The notes beneath the pieces are model-generated. The model was not told where the DNA came from and searched no databases. It saw only the letters and a program-made list of their open reading frames with translations. Both the position numbers and the translations under genes were made by a program. From Verrucomicrobiota bacterium (GTDB lineage: Bacteria; Verrucomicrobiota; Verrucomicrobiia; Chthoniobacterales; UBA10450): 37,817 nucleotides of DNA. Every line of letters begins with the position of its first letter. Position 1 is the stretch's first letter. Below, piece by piece: positions 1,721 through 37,817 of this stretch. Where the stretch lies: contig QHNV01000085.1 of the NCBI GenBank assembly GCA_003218535.1, positions 1-37,817 on the forward strand, read 5' to 3'.

Positions 1721-1730
1721 GCGCATGGGA

Positions 1731-1758
1731 TGAGGGTTGATAGTTGAGAGTTGAGGGA
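1731..1758 (+). repeat. Heptamer array left of the S23 gene
   Basis: Four tandem 7-mers in perfect phase: TGAGGGT, TGATAGT, TGAGAGT, TGAGGGA. The array ends 14 nt before the ATG of the S23 gene. The reverse complements of these 7-mers reappear in a second array that begins at the gene's stop codon (2129-2156), so the gene is bracketed by inverted short tandem repeats. Confidence 0.8.
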
Positions 1759-1772
1759 CTTATAAGTGCGGA

Positions 1773-2129
1773 ATGTTTAATTTTGAAAAACTCGATGTTT
1801 GGCAGGAAGCAATTCAGTTTGCTGATCTGGTGTATGAATTGACCGGTGATTTTCCGGACGGGGAACGTTTCGGATTGACCAATCAGATGCGGCGTGCCGC
1901 TGTGTCTATTTCATCGAATCTAGCGGAAGGAAGTTCACGCGTATCGCGGACCGATTTCGGCCGCTTCGTAGAAATTGCAACGGGATCTCTGTTCGAGGTT
2001 GTTTCGCAAACTACGATCGCGCTTCGCCGAAGAATGATCGCGCAAAACGATTATAAACGTATCTACGCGGCAGCTGAAAAACAGAGCAAAATGCTCAGCG
2101 GATTGCGCAGGTCATTGTCTGCGACGTAA
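1773..2129 (+). CDS. Four-helix-bundle S23/bAvd-like protein
   Basis: The 118-residue protein matches the S23 family (23S rRNA intervening-sequence protein, related to the accessory variability protein Avd of diversity-generating retroelements). It opens with the typical FEKLDVWQEAIQFADLVYEL helix. The second helix carries the hallmark QMRRAAVSISSNLAEGSSR, followed by FGRFVEIATGSLFEV and a last helix. Family members form basic pentameric four-helix bundles that bind nucleic acid. The role of free-standing copies is unknown. No rRNA and no reverse transcriptase are near it. The gene is set between inverted 7-nt repeat arrays whose inner edge touches the stop codon. The paralogue at 36211-36600 has the same layout with 8-nt repeats. 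Confidence 0.88.
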   Translation: MFNFEKLDVWQEAIQFADLVYELTGDFPDGERFGLTNQMRRAAVSISSNLAEGSSRVSRTDFGRFVEIATGSLFEVVSQTTIALRRRMIAQNDYKRIYAAAEKQSKMLSGLRRSLSAT

Positions 2130-2156
2130 CTCTCAACCCTCAGCCAAAGACCCTCA
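2129..2156 (+). repeat. Inverted heptamer array right of the S23 gene
   Basis: Units ACTCTCA (2129-2135), ACCCTCA (2136-2142), a diverged GCCAAAG (2143-2149) and ACCCTCA (2150-2156) keep a strict 7-nt period. They are reverse complements of TGAGAGT and TGAGGGT in the left array. The first base overlaps the last base of the S23 stop codon. Transcribed together, the two arrays could form a long imperfect stem enclosing the whole gene. Confidence 0.8.
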
Positions 2157-2164
2157 ACGGTCTG

Positions 2165-7820: not shown

Positions 7821-8969
7821 ATGAAAATGAAAATCCGAAATCCGAAATCCGAAATCCGAAATCGTCTGATCGTTGCGGCCAGTGAGACTGATCCAGACAT
7901 GCTGTACGCCACGAAGTTTTGGGCGCCTGATCCCTTTATTTTCCTGGAGCGAAATGGCAAGCGCACGCTGGTCTTGAGCGATTTGGAAATCGATCGGGGC
8001 CGAAACCAAGCCGACGCCGATGAATTTGTTATGTTCAGTGAGATCGAGCGCGAAGTGCAGGGCAAATCCAAAAAAGCGCCGCCCTACGAAAAAGTGCTCG
8101 CGCATTTTCTGCGAAAGCGTGGCGTGAGATCGACAATCGTTCCGGCAAATTTCCCGCTTCGTTACGCGGAAGAACTCGCCGCGAACAAAATTCGTGTCCG
8201 CGCGACCAACGGCCTTTTCTGGCCGGAGCGCGAAGCGAAATCGAACAAGGAAATCGAGATGATCTGTGGCGGGTTGCGAATTACCGAAGCAGGGCTCCGG
8301 CGGGCAATTGAAATTCTAAAAGCATCGAAGCCCGGACCCGGGAAAAAACTGCGCTGGAATGGAAAAACTCTGACCTCGGAAATGCTGCGCGCCGAAATTG
8401 ATTCCACGATTTTGCGCGCAGGCGGCGTCCCGACCGGAACAATCGTCGCCGGCGGCGACCAGGCTTGCGATCCGCACGAACGCGGTCATGGTCCGCTTTA
8501 CGCGGACTCACTCATTATTCTCGATGTTTTCCCGCGCGACGCGAAGACCGGCTACTTCGGCGACATGACCCGCACGGTTTTGCGCGGGCGCGCCAGCGAC
8601 CCGCAGCGCAAGCTTTGGAACACCGTGAAGGCCGGACAAGCGCTTGCTTTGAAGAAGATCAAGGCGGGCGTCGACGGGATGGGAATTCATAAGGCGATCC
8701 AGGAATTTTTCGCGAAGCGCGGTTTCCCGACGGAGATTCGCAAAGGGCGGCGAGTCGGATTTTTCCATGGGACCGGTCACGGCCTTGGCTTGGAGATTCA
8801 CGAGTATCCGCGTTTGCAAAAAGTGACCCTGAAAGATCGACAAGTACTGACGGTTGAGCCCGGCTTGTATTACCCAGGACTCGGCGGCGTGCGGATTGAA
8901 GACGTAGTCCTGGTTACCAAAACGGGTTGCAGAATTCTGTCGCGGTTTCCAAAGCAATTAGAAATCTAG
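7821..8969 (+). CDS. M24 metallopeptidase (Xaa-Pro aminopeptidase type)
   Basis: The 382-residue protein has the creatinase-like N-domain and the pita-bread catalytic domain of M24 peptidases. All five metal ligands are visible: Asp235 (ILDVFP), Asp248 (GYFGDMTRT), His320 (FHGTGHGLGLEIHE), Glu346 (LTVEPGLYY) and Glu360 (GVRIEDVV). It should remove N-terminal residues preceding proline, or act as a related dipeptidase, in the cytoplasm. The gene starts 1 nt after the stop of the ABC transporter, with AAGGAG 5 nt before the ATG, so translation is probably coupled. The first 15 residues (MKMKIRNPKSEIRNR) are encoded by a tandem AAATCCG repeat, and family similarity begins only at LIVAASETDPDMLYATKF. 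Confidence 0.9.
   Translation: MKMKIRNPKSEIRNRLIVAASETDPDMLYATKFWAPDPFIFLERNGKRTLVLSDLEIDRGRNQADADEFVMFSEIEREVQGKSKKAPPYEKVLAHFLRKRGVRSTIVPANFPLRYAEELAANKIRVRATNGLFWPEREAKSNKEIEMICGGLRITEAGLRRAIEILKASKPGPGKKLRWNGKTLTSEMLRAEIDSTILRAGGVPTGTIVAGGDQACDPHERGHGPLYADSLIILDVFPRDAKTGYFGDMTRTVLRGRASDPQRKLWNTVKAGQALALKKIKAGVDGMGIHKAIQEFFAKRGFPTEIRKGRRVGFFHGTGHGLGLEIHEYPRLQKVTLKDRQVLTVEPGLYYPGLGGVRIEDVVLVTKTGCRILSRFPKQLEI
7831..7864 (+). repeat. AAATCCG heptamer array inside a gene start
   Basis: Four perfect AAATCCG units (7831-7858) plus a partial AAATCG (to 7864) form codons 4-14 of the M24 peptidase. Because 7 is not a multiple of 3, the array is read in all three phases and gives KIRNPKSEIRNR. No inverted partner array and no S23 gene are near it. 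It resembles in unit length the arrays around the two S23 genes. Confidence 0.85.
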
Positions 8970-34803: not shown

Positions 34804-35262
34804 CTACCAACCAGTTAGTTCTCGAAAAATTCTCTGCTGCACCTTTTCCATTTCTCGTGCACGGGCTTTCGTTCGGTCATCAAAGCCGTGCAGATGGAGC
34901 AGGCCATGCACCACATACAGCCGAATCTCATGGGTGAGTGAATTTCCGAATACCCGAGCATTCTGGCGCGCCGTCTCGGCACTGATAAAAATTTCGCCGT
35001 GCTCAAACGTCAGCACGTCCGTCGACCCCGCCTTATTGAGAAATTGTCGATGCAAACAGGTCATTCGTCGATCGGAGATAATCCAAATGAAAATCTCGCG
35101 AAGTCTCGTCAGGTCGGTGCCTTTTCGTTGGTGCAACGCCAAGCAACATCGCACCGCCATCCCGGCAAATTTCTTAAGATCTACGGTGTTGACTGTAATA
35201 GCTCGCTGGATGTTACGCACGCTAATTTTCGGAAACGCCGCAGGCTTTGAATTACCCCTCAT
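34804..35262 (-). CDS. ybeY: Endoribonuclease YbeY
   Basis: YbeY is a metal-dependent endoribonuclease used in rRNA maturation and ribosome quality control. The 152-residue protein shows NKAGSTDVLTFEHGEIFIS and the zinc region LTHEIRLYVVHGLLHLHGFDD. Two metal histidines are present, but the third of the usual HGxLHLxGYDH is Asp, a change also seen in some other YbeY groups, so activity is probably kept. The start is the ATG at 35262, which overlaps the panE stop by 4 nt (ATGA). The N-terminal half is less conserved, as is normal. The gene is transcribed after panE. Confidence 0.88.
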   Translation of the reverse strand: MRGNSKPAAFPKISVRNIQRAITVNTVDLKKFAGMAVRCCLALHQRKGTDLTRLREIFIWIISDRRMTCLHRQFLNKAGSTDVLTFEHGEIFISAETARQNARVFGNSLTHEIRLYVVHGLLHLHGFDDRTKARAREMEKVQQRIFRELTGW

Positions 35263-36194
35263 GATGATTGTTGCTCTTTGCGTTTTGTTTCGAGCGATTT
35301 GAGCAATGCATAAATAATTTCGAGCTGCGGTACATTTGCCCCGGCGGCGGTGGCGCGCCGGAGCGGCTCGCCCCAAATTGCCTCGATCTCAAGAGGTTTG
35401 CCCTTTTCCCAATCAGACAACGTGGAAGGTTTGAAGGCGCCCAGTTTCTCTGTCCGTTTGATTTGTTTCTGGGCTACCGCTTTATCCAAGGCGTGTCCGC
35501 ATGCATTGGCGGCATCGATCACTTCATCCATGAGCGCCAGCGTCGCGCGACGCAAACCGTCATCGGCCAGAATTTCGGCCGTGCTAATGCCGCCGGCGAG
35601 GACTGACAATGCGTTGAATGGAATGTTCCACACCAACTTCCGCCATCGTTCAAGCGCAAGATCGTCAGTGACACTGCAATCGATCCCGCACGCCGCAAAT
35701 TGCGATGCGATCGCGTGCGTTCGCCTGCTCGCGCTGCGTATGTACTCGCCGATCACGAGAGTGCCGGGGTCGTACGCTTTGACTTCAGTGGGCGAAATTC
35801 GATTCACACAAATGAAGCAGAGCCCGCCCAGCACGCGTTCCGCGCCGAAGTGCTCAGCAAGAAACTCTTCGTTGCCGAGACCGTTCTGCAATGTGAGTAG
35901 AGCCGTCTGCTCGTGCAGAAGTGGCGGGATGAGATTGAGAAGGTCGCCGTTCGACGTCGCCTTCACAGCGACGATCACCAGATCGCGCGGTCCGATTTCC
36001 TTGGTCGAGTTGTAACACGTCACGTTGGCGACTCGGAAGCTCTCGACTCTTCCACGGACGTAGAGACCGTTGTGCCGGACTTCACTCAGCTCGCCGCGCA
36101 TCAAAAATTGCACGTCCGCTCCGCCATGGGCCAGGTGCGCGCCGTAATAGGTACCGATTGCTCCGGAACCGACGACGACGATACGCAGACCCAT
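35259..36194 (-). CDS. panE: 2-dehydropantoate 2-reductase
   Basis: PanE reduces ketopantoate to pantoate with NADPH in pantothenate/CoA synthesis. The 311-residue protein has the nucleotide loop VVVGSGAIGTYYGAHL and the conserved LVIVAVKATSNGD. It continues with LTLQNGLGNEEFLAEHFG and the catalytic-domain signature WRKLVWNIPFNALSVLAGG, and the C-terminal helical part is complete. Related ketoacid reductases share these motifs, so the assignment is by family. The ATG overlaps the first repeat unit (ATTTAT) of the array beside the second S23 gene. The ybeY gene follows with a 4-nt overlap. Confidence 0.9.
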   Translation of the reverse strand: MGLRIVVVGSGAIGTYYGAHLAHGGADVQFLMRGELSEVRHNGLYVRGRVESFRVANVTCYNSTKEIGPRDLVIVAVKATSNGDLLNLIPPLLHEQTALLTLQNGLGNEEFLAEHFGAERVLGGLCFICVNRISPTEVKAYDPGTLVIGEYIRSASRRTHAIASQFAACGIDCSVTDDLALERWRKLVWNIPFNALSVLAGGISTAEILADDGLRRATLALMDEVIDAANACGHALDKAVAQKQIKRTEKLGAFKPSTLSDWEKGKPLEIEAIWGEPLRRATAAGANVPQLEIIYALLKSLETKRKEQQSS

Positions 36195-36198
36195 TTAT

Positions 36199-36230
36199 CG
36201 ATTTAATGATTTAGTGATTTAGCGATTTCG
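36199..36230 (+). repeat. Octamer array at the 3' end of the second S23 gene
   Basis: Four tandem 8-mers: CGATTTAA, TGATTTAG, TGATTTAG, CGATTTCG. The S23 stop codon (36213-36211) lies within the array, so the last residues (SLNH) are encoded by repeat units. The reverse complements of these units form the array at 36603-36634. Confidence 0.82.
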
Positions 36231-36600
36231 AACGACCGCTGGCGCGCTTTGCCGTGGCCAGAGACGCTGAAAATATTTTCAATAACTCAGCGCATTCCCA
36301 GAGCAACGGCGCGGCTAATTTTGGGCTGATCAAGTCGGCTTCGACTAGCAATTCAAACCAAAAGAGCGTTTCGTCGACCTCTTCGGTCACGATGCTCACC
36401 TTCGAAATGAAATCGGCCGCGGAACGCGCCCGACAAGCGGCCCTATAATTCGCAGCCAGGGAAGTCCCCGATCGAAGAAACTGCCGGCCGATTATACGCG
36501 CAGCTTCGTCCTTCGGAAGCCTGGCAAATGCCTCGATAATACGAATAGCGAACGCCTTTGTTCTAGCCTGCAATTGTTTAGCTCGATTGAGTGTGTTCAT
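36211..36600 (-). CDS. Four-helix-bundle S23/bAvd-like protein, second copy
   Basis: The 129-residue protein belongs to the S23 four-helix-bundle family: FAIRIIEAFARLPKDEAARI, IGRQFLRSGTSLAANYRAAC, FISKVSIVTEEVDETLFWFE, LLVEADLISPKLAAPLL. It is clearly diverged from the copy at 1773-2129 (RSGTSLAANYRAACRA against RAAVSISSNLAEGSSR), so the two are distant relatives and not a recent duplication. The ATG is 2 nt from an array of 8-nt repeats, which occupies the place of a ribosome-binding site. The stop codon lies in the inverted array on the other side. Function is unknown. Confidence 0.87.
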   Translation of the reverse strand: MNTLNRAKQLQARTKAFAIRIIEAFARLPKDEAARIIGRQFLRSGTSLAANYRAACRARSAADFISKVSIVTEEVDETLFWFELLVEADLISPKLAAPLLWECAELLKIFSASLATAKRASGRSKSLNH

Positions 36601-36602
36601 AG

Positions 36603-36634
36603 CTCAATCGTTAAATCATTAAGTCGGTAAATCG
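36603..36634 (+). repeat. Inverted octamer array at the 5' end of the second S23 gene
   Basis: Plus-strand units CTCAATCG, TTAAATCA, TTAAGTCG, GTAAATCG with strict 8-nt period. Their reverse complements (CGATTGAG, TGATTTAA, CGACTTAA, CGATTTAC) match the left array at about 25 of 32 positions, so the gene's transcript could close into a long imperfect stem. Confidence 0.8.
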
Positions 36635-36644
36635 TTAACTGTTT

Positions 36645-37817
36645 TCATGCCGGCGGTCTTTGCTCCGATTGGAAGTTGCGCGTGATCAATCGTGCGCCTT
36701 TGTCGAAGGTCAAATACGCCCAGGCCCATTGAAAGAGTACCAGCAACCGGTTGCGGAAACCGACCAGGAAAATGATGTGCACGAACAACCACGCCAGCCA
36801 CGCCGGAAGGCCGCTGAGATGCACGAACTTTAAATCTGCGACCGCTCTGTTCCGCCCAATTGTCGCCATCGTTCCTTTGTCGAAATAATGGAATGGCTCC
36901 GGGTTTTGTCCTCGAATCATTCGTAGAATGTTGCGCGCGGCGTGGCGTCCCTGTTGCATCGCTACTGGCGAGATTCCAGGCAACGGCTGTCCAGTTTGAT
37001 GCGAAAAATTTGCCAGATCGCCGATCACCTGGACTTCCGGGTGTCCTGGAATGGTGAGGTCGTCGTTTACAATAACGCGGCCGACCCGGTCCACGGGCGC
37101 GCGGAGCGTTTTTCCAACGAACGATGCATTGTTTCCAGCTGCCCAAATTTTCACACGGCAAGGGATAAATTCCCCGTTCACTTGCACTCCTGCCTCGGTA
37201 AGATTCGTTGCCCGTGCGCCGGTGCGCACTTCCACGCCCAGATCCACGAGCTGTTTTCGCGCGCTCGCCGATAAATCCTCCGGATAAGCGGCCAGCAGAC
37301 GTGGCTCGCCTTCTATGAGAATGACACGCGCCTCCGATGGATCGATGTGGCGAAAGTCTCTGGCGAGCGTGTAACGGGAGATTTCTGCGATCGCGCCCGC
37401 CATTTCGACACCCGTCGGTCCGCCGCCGATGATGACAAAATTCATCGCCGCTCTGCGCGCGGCTTCATCTGTGGTCTTTTCCGCATATTCGAACGCCATA
37501 AGAATCCGGCGGCGCAGCTCAATCGCGTCTTCGAGACTTTTTAATCCAGGGGCAAGTTTTTCCCACTCGTTATGGCCAAAGTAGGAATGTCGCGCACCGG
37601 TGGCGAGGATCAGATAGTCGTAATCGCTTTCCAGATCGAGCGTTTTGACTTTTTTTGCATCGACATCCACGGATTGCACTTCTGCAAGAATCACCTCAAC
37701 GTTCCTGCATTTGCTAAGGACTGCGCGCACCGGCGCGGCAATGTCGGCCGGTGAAAGTGCCGCTGTCGCGACTTGGTAGAGTAAGGGTTGAAAGAGATGG
37801 TAATTTGTGCGGTCGAT
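36645..37817 (-). CDS. Type II NADH:quinone oxidoreductase, 5' end cut
   Basis: The frame is open from 36645 to the right edge without a start, giving 390 residues of a type II NADH dehydrogenase (NDH-2). These single-subunit FAD enzymes pass electrons from NADH to quinone at the inner membrane without pumping protons. Visible are IDRTNYHLFQPLLYQVATAA, DYLILATGARHSYFG, the NADH loop FVIIGGGPTGVEMAGAI, VQVIGDLANF for FAD, and AMQQGRHAARNI. The C-terminal part has hydrophobic helices (LPAWLAWLFVHIIFLVGFRN) for membrane contact. The N-terminal FAD loop lies outside the window. Confidence 0.93.
   Translation of the reverse strand: MDRTNYHLFQPLLYQVATAALSPADIAAPVRAVLSKCRNVEVILAEVQSVDVDAKKVKTLDLESDYDYLILATGARHSYFGHNEWEKLAPGLKSLEDAIELRRRILMAFEYAEKTTDEAARRAAMNFVIIGGGPTGVEMAGAIAEISRYTLARDFRHIDPSEARVILIEGEPRLLAAYPEDLSASARKQLVDLGVEVRTGARATNLTEAGVQVNGEFIPCRVKIWAAGNNASFVGKTLRAPVDRVGRVIVNDDLTIPGHPEVQVIGDLANFSHQTGQPLPGISPVAMQQGRHAARNILRMIRGQNPEPFHYFDKGTMATIGRNRAVADLKFVHLSGLPAWLAWLFVHIIFLVGFRNRLLVLFQWAWAYLTFDKGARLITRNFQSEQRPPA

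Follow-up and report, generated by a model that had tools for sequence, protein, structure and literature searches.

The 37,817-nt stretch of DNA analysed here ('the window', taken at its full length; positions 1 to 37,817 of contig QHNV01000085.1 from a Verrucomicrobiota bacterium) carries, between two protein-coding genes near one end, a small open reading frame (ORF) of the S23 family enclosed by two mirrored tandem arrays of 8-nt units. We refer to this arrangement as copy B and to the arrays as its arms; a second armed S23 gene, copy A, lies near the other end (Table 1). On the minus strand the 5′ arm of copy B reads TTAACGAT TTACCGAC TTAATGAT TTAACGAT TG, that is, five TTA-like cores, and mirrors in more degenerate form the array at 36193–36228, which comprises about 4.5 eight-nt units (ATTTATCGATTTAATGATTTAGTGATTTAGCGATTT) and reads by unit TTATCGAT TTAATGAT TTAGTGAT TTAGCGAT TT on the plus strand. 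The 3′ end of copy B falls, on that strand, within CGATTTAA TGATTTAG TGATTTAG CGATTT. The stop codon lies inside the repeat, as claimed by the original prediction, which a model had made from the sequence alone, and the 3′ arm overlaps the stop codon in 37/91 and 43/86 of the elements sampled below. The 3′ arm abuts the ATG (36194) of the PanE-like gene, and 7 nt separate the stop codon of the NADH dehydrogenase-like gene from the 5′ arm.

Table 1. Positions of the S23 elements, their arms and neighbouring features in the window
Feature	Position	Strand	Remarks
S23/four-helix-bundle ORF, copy B	36211..36600	-	129 aa
5′ arm of copy B	36605..36638	-	8-nt array 5′ of start codon
3′ arm of copy B	36193..36228	+	Mirrored five-core array
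Stop codon TAA of copy B	36211..36213	-	Within 3′ arm; likewise in the copy of relative G013
Gene downstream of copy B	35259..36194	-	Ketopantoate-reductase/PanE-like (sequence read by eye); empty-site boundary
Gene upstream of copy B	36645..37730	-	NADH dehydrogenase-like (sequence read by eye); empty-site boundary
S23 ORF, copy A	1773..2129	+	118 aa; PF05635, E = 3 × 10−35
5′ arm of copy A	1727..1757	+	7-nt units GTTGAGA/GTTGAGG
3′ arm of copy A	2128..2158	-	Mirrored 7-nt units, starting at copy A stop codon
Solo array (ATTTCGG)4.7	7831..7863	-	S23 gene absent; 32–33 nt, the five-core size of element arms

The mirrored arrays of copy B are confirmed. Aligned with each other, its arms reach a Smith–Waterman score of 38, which none of 5,000 shuffles equalled (mean 15.9, maximum 33; p = 2 × 10−4), and those of copy A score 26 (p = 0.0016). 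RNA folding predicts for either copy a hairpin that is closed by the arms and encloses the ORF (z = −3.5 for copy B and −2.5 for copy A). The two proteins are only 17–20% identical and both match PF05635 and TIGR02436, in line with the earlier claim of a second, diverged S23 gene that has the same layout and an unrelated 8-nt repeat.

Profile searches assign the copy B protein to PF05635 (E = 3 × 10−13) and TIGR02436 (E = 2 × 10−21). Its AlphaFold2 model, with a predicted local distance difference test (pLDDT) score of 90.7, has four helices, and Foldseek returned for it the S23-family structure 2rld as the best match, then 2gsc and the Avd protein of diversity-generating retroelements (DGRs), with template modelling (TM) scores of 0.74 for 4dwl and 0.72 for 8ub7. 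The model suggests that the protein folds as an S23/Avd-type bundle. This bundle is the only ORF of copy B; we found no transposase or nuclease domain in it, and domain and structure searches gave no Y1 transposase.

The source genome has four S23 genes, and 50/58 of its relatives, all represented by draft genomes, have up to 13 each, with copy number ranging from 0 to 13 per genome among congeners. From the best PF05635 hits we collected the flanks of 95 S23 copies from the genus and order (near sample) and of 98 copies from ten cyanobacterial plasmids and 80 genomes of many phyla, including two archaea (wide sample). With 102 control ORFs as reference, 97% of the near-sample copies (n = 95) and 91% of the wide-sample copies (n = 98) had even their weaker arm scoring beyond the 99th control percentile, and the median inverted match between arms was 35–37, compared to 17–18 for mispaired arms; arms mispaired between elements match at chance level unless they have a unit in common. 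Units are diverse (GTTGAGA, GTGACGA, GTGAGAA, ATTTCGG, GGATACT, CGGCGAAA, GTTGAAGC, GGAGTAAT, AGTCAGG, GGGAACA and others), but both ends of an element always share one unit, mirrored, and heptamers form the arms of the cyanobacterial plasmid genes. Phage records gave no S23 match. The layout is thus nearly universal in the family, extending from the genus into other phyla and to two archaea, and the expectation that a recurring architecture matters, which the absence of further examples in related genomes would have undermined, holds up. Its recurrence with different repeats across most bacterial phyla points to a small selfish element that is common, has for the most part not been described and is related to the inserts of some rRNA genes.

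Two archaeal drafts, of ANME-1 (L201) and Woesearchaeota (L243), have mirrored heptamer arms around S23 genes that are weaker than the bacterial ones. On two cyanobacterial plasmids (L159 and L161), heptamer-armed S23 elements sit between cas6 and cas4; cas loci are also where 23S_rRNA_IVP genes have been described (PMC3936711), and these may have come in by insertion and not be cas genes.

Comparison of orthologous sites separates the element from its surroundings. Site B, between the NADH-dehydrogenase-like gene (ndh-2) and panE, is filled in the source genome (G000) and in G013 and empty in G004, G005 and G007, where 4–7 nt lie between stop and ATG and there is no array. G010 has an S23 gene there with unit TTGCCAA in the opposite orientation, and G002 and G003 have arms and no S23 gene, with both inverted arms of the G003 relic kept around another insert. 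A further site, site 2, is empty and without array in G002, G004, G007, G008, G024 and G025, and a single arm remains in G012. Since these orthologous empty sites hold no array, the arms belong to the element and come and go with it, and the target preference for tandem arrays offered by the original prediction fails in nine genome/site combinations. Scored with a longest-ORF heuristic, elements between co-directional genes are in sense by 50:3 and 62:3 (112/118 combined), and annotated plasmid loci give 8:2. The antisense cases include two cyanobacterial plasmids on which the element lies between genes for ribonucleotide reductase subunits or secretion transporters (L154 and L157). The sites also host another type of repeat, which forms a hairpin with CCCTCGACTTCGCTTCGCTCCGCTCGGGATGAC-like ends; it was found between the arms at site B of G003 (L108) and at site 2 of L327, L328, L335 and others, and sometimes carries a small ORF that looks GIY-YIG-like by eye.

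The two arms of an element change together. For a site that eleven relatives share, with units GTGAGAA, GTGATCA or GTGAATG, we aligned the two arms of eight elements with each other: pairing holds in 92.5% of cells, 26 changes are double-sided (shuffled 11.8 ± 2.4), and the covariation score of 0.320 (shuffled 0.126 ± 0.023) was reached in 0/500 shuffles and drops to 0.008–0.159 when the arms are slid. Hardly any variation falls in the GTGA cores; it is the spacers that change, jointly in both arms. Across elements, unit and period follow the S23 clade, the outcome of a survey of units against S23 phylogeny that had been proposed as a check: a unit is shared by 88–100% of pairs above 80% protein identity and by none below 40%. 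At site 2, S23 proteins with the same unit cluster in the tree, which shows no correlation with the adjacent host gene (rho = −0.10); between G015 and G029, for example, that gene is 94% identical and S23 69%. As the tree follows unit type and not host, we reject the view that the elements at this site are vertical orthologues, and covariation there reflects element lineage rather than change in place.

What mostly stays constant as the unit varies is the number of cores. Periods range from 6 to 9 nt with S23 clade, and median arm length is 32 nt for period 7, 36 nt for period 8 (longer than the former, p = 1 × 10−4) and 37 nt for period 9. Four intervals, equal to five cores, are the mode in each class (73/121 period-7, 25/41 period-8 and 4/6 period-9 arms). 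The solved S23 relatives 2gsc and 2rld have five chains each, and Xcc0516 is an assembly of five four-helix bundles according to Lin et al. 2006 as cited in PMC4990558 and PMC3936711. The five cores agree with these five-chain relatives; a TRAP-like ring that binds regularly spaced motifs matched in number to its subunits would be a candidate model, and we infer one core per protomer of a putative five-chain S23 protein.

We give about even chances to the reading that copy B is a free-standing selfish S23 element of the type found as intervening sequences (IVSs) in rRNA, here between protein genes, forming an operon-transcribed hairpin whose arms serve as recognition sites for a pentameric Avd-like protein. 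The element would be transcribed together with the host operon, and its arms would pair into a hairpin with the S23 ORF as its loop; as with rRNA IVSs, this hairpin may be a substrate of RNase III or a similar nuclease. A pentameric S23 ring might then touch the five cores, one per protomer, in a TRAP-like wrapping that marks its own element, and the protein–arm complex could let the element re-enter preferred sites, by which each clade is proposed to keep its own unit and sites. The broader version is more tentative, and we put it at somewhat below even: a cross-phylum class of small selfish S23 elements in which a pentamer recognises mirrored arms by their count of five cores, the sequence being otherwise unconstrained. 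Such elements would spread in sense to favoured sites in rRNA and between genes, and would be the origin of the heptanucleotide repeats known from cyanobacteria, Xanthomonas and other organisms.

Several results weigh against this reading. In the wide sample 41% of arms have four intervals and many arrays exceed five cores; as long expansions are common there, the five-core rule is a mode and not a law. A minority of elements is antisense (L102, L154 and L157, for example). The host comparison at site 2 uses one gene, and other same-site groups are small or mixed, with rho ranging widely and reaching 0.36 (p = 0.03) in one group of nine, so vertical descent may account for some of the pattern. 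No target-site duplication could be resolved at sites B and 2, where junctions are too diverged between species. The S23 protein of Coxiella is apparently not made in vivo (PMC4990558). Mismatches between arms comprise 178 G–U and 208 A–C, and with no G–U excess in this wobble test for RNA-level selection RNA pairing is not visibly selected; the pairing constraint might lie at the DNA level, or stem from one end being copied onto the other. The earlier suggestion of a required RNA stem is a possible reading: pairing and sense orientation fit it, and the mismatch spectrum lends it no support.

Matched ends and clean empty sites are also what a DNA transposon-like element would leave, with the arms as terminal inverted repeats that S23 binds as double- or single-stranded DNA, recruiting host nucleases and ligases, and with RNA pairing irrelevant. 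Solo arms, S23-less arm pairs, the missing G–U bias and the lack of a resident reverse transcriptase favour such an element. We nevertheless hold it to be unlikely, as the 112:6 sense bias is unexpected unless selection removes antisense copies, no known transposase or nuclease domain is present and no target duplication was resolved. S23 might instead serve the host, the purine-rich five-core 5′ array being its site for TRAP-like translational autocontrol and the 3′ arm being anti-sequestering. The 5′ arm is indeed purine-rich in 137/157 elements and ends a median of 14–16 nt before the first in-frame start, but a non-selfish cassette of this kind leaves unexplained the patchy presence at the same intergenic sites, the 0–13 copies among congeners, the coupling of unit to clade with dozens of paralogues and the solo arms without S23, which makes it quite improbable.

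That the element targets pre-existing tandem arrays would account for solo arrays of arm size and for the single arrays in G009 and G012, where relatives have an element with a similar unit. The array-free empty sites speak against it, as do arms that are inverted and not direct, also around the other insert in the G003 relic, and we regard it as very improbable. Heptamers are the commonest bacterial short tandem repeats in work cited in PMC4679880, which would suit chance or plain replication slippage beside an ordinary gene; the mirroring of the arms, their fixed number of cores, their covariation and a layout that almost the whole family has leave this hardly credible and refute it for the S23 family as a whole.

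Arrays of arm size also occur on their own. Scanning 194 kb, made up of the window and random stretches of the same genome, we found 12 tandem arrays (one of them a run of N) against 2 in Markov-shuffled sequence, and about eight solo arrays of 31–35 nt lie in these 194 kb. Solo arrays without an S23 gene match the arms in size, as in a set of thirty with unit ATTTCGG, many of which measure exactly 32 nt; the source genome has about ten ATTTCGG arrays in total, and no cognate S23 gene was found there. The array at 7831–7863 lies at the 5′ end of an ORF at 7821. Just upstream of copy A, at about 1400–1547, the end of a small ORF, reading LVYYEAYLNQADALGRERYLKSSAGRRFLKAQLRHYL, appears GIY-YIG-like by eye.

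To our knowledge, no function has been assigned to the very abundant S23/four-helix-bundle genes, and heptameric repeats have been noted for decades with no known origin. If the two belong together, both puzzles become testable, and a protein that reads a fixed repeat number while the repeat sequence drifts with protein clade would, if true, be an unusual recognition system.

Among known systems, REP/REPIN repetitive extragenic palindromes with their RAYT genes resemble S23 elements in having a protein gene flanked by inverted repeats and many gene-less solo repeats, but RAYT is a Y1 transposase acting with a REP palindrome, whereas S23 is a four-helix bundle with tandem arrays. Measured against DNA transposons and insertion sequences, copy B has terminal inverted repeats and no transposase domain. 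Avd is a pentamer in the DGR RNA–protein complex. Its structures (4dwl and the ribonucleoprotein 8ub7) share the fold of the copy B protein; DGR template or variable repeats did not turn up here, though no search was aimed at them, and no RVT_1 domain was found in G000 (90% completeness) or in S23-rich relatives such as G013, G015 and G023. With most S23-rich genomes having no resident reverse transcriptase, dependence on one was rejected.

Heptanucleotide repeats described previously, namely the short tandemly repeated repetitive (STRR) sequences of cyanobacteria, the GGGAATC arrays of Xanthomonas with 70–75 inverted pairs (PMC4692102), TAACTGA (PMC4679880) and Nostoc trnL P6b (PMC4476775), resemble S23 arms in their period of 7, mostly about four units and frequent occurrence as inverted pairs or hairpin stems. 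These three reports do not tie them to S23 genes; Xanthomonas campestris encodes the S23 protein Xcc0516, and we infer a link between such repeats and S23 genes. In Nostoc, the P6b stem of the trnL group I intron consists of heptamers TDNGATT or NNTGAGT that were repeatedly and independently swapped (PMC4476775), and it looks like S23-type arms without the gene.

The closest relatives are the IVSs of 23S rRNA in Leptospira and Coxiella burnetii (PMC4990558), in which an S23 ORF lies in sense within a stem that RNase III excises. In Coxiella, 3–4 tandem GACAGAT heptamers stand directly before the ORF, their number varying by strain (PMC4990558). Copy B likewise has an S23-family ORF, complementary ends with a predicted stem around it, a length of about 430 nt and sense orientation in the host transcript. 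IVSs occupy helices 9, 25 or 45 of 23S rRNA, whereas copy B and the other elements examined lie between protein genes; Rfam gave no hit in the window and none of six conserved 23S motifs occurs in any fetched S23 locus. Having the ORF and the stem and not the location, copy B is IVS-like and not a strict IVS. Five cores, a clade-specific unit, 3′ mirroring and periods other than 7 are not part of the published IVS description (PMC4990558), and in the part of the literature covered we found no account of such a free-standing form. The earlier remark that no described system follows these rules is therefore partly right: an S23 ORF within complementary ends, with heptamers in Coxiella, was already known from 23S rRNA IVSs (PMC4990558), and within the literature covered the remark holds for the free-standing, five-core, clade-specific form.
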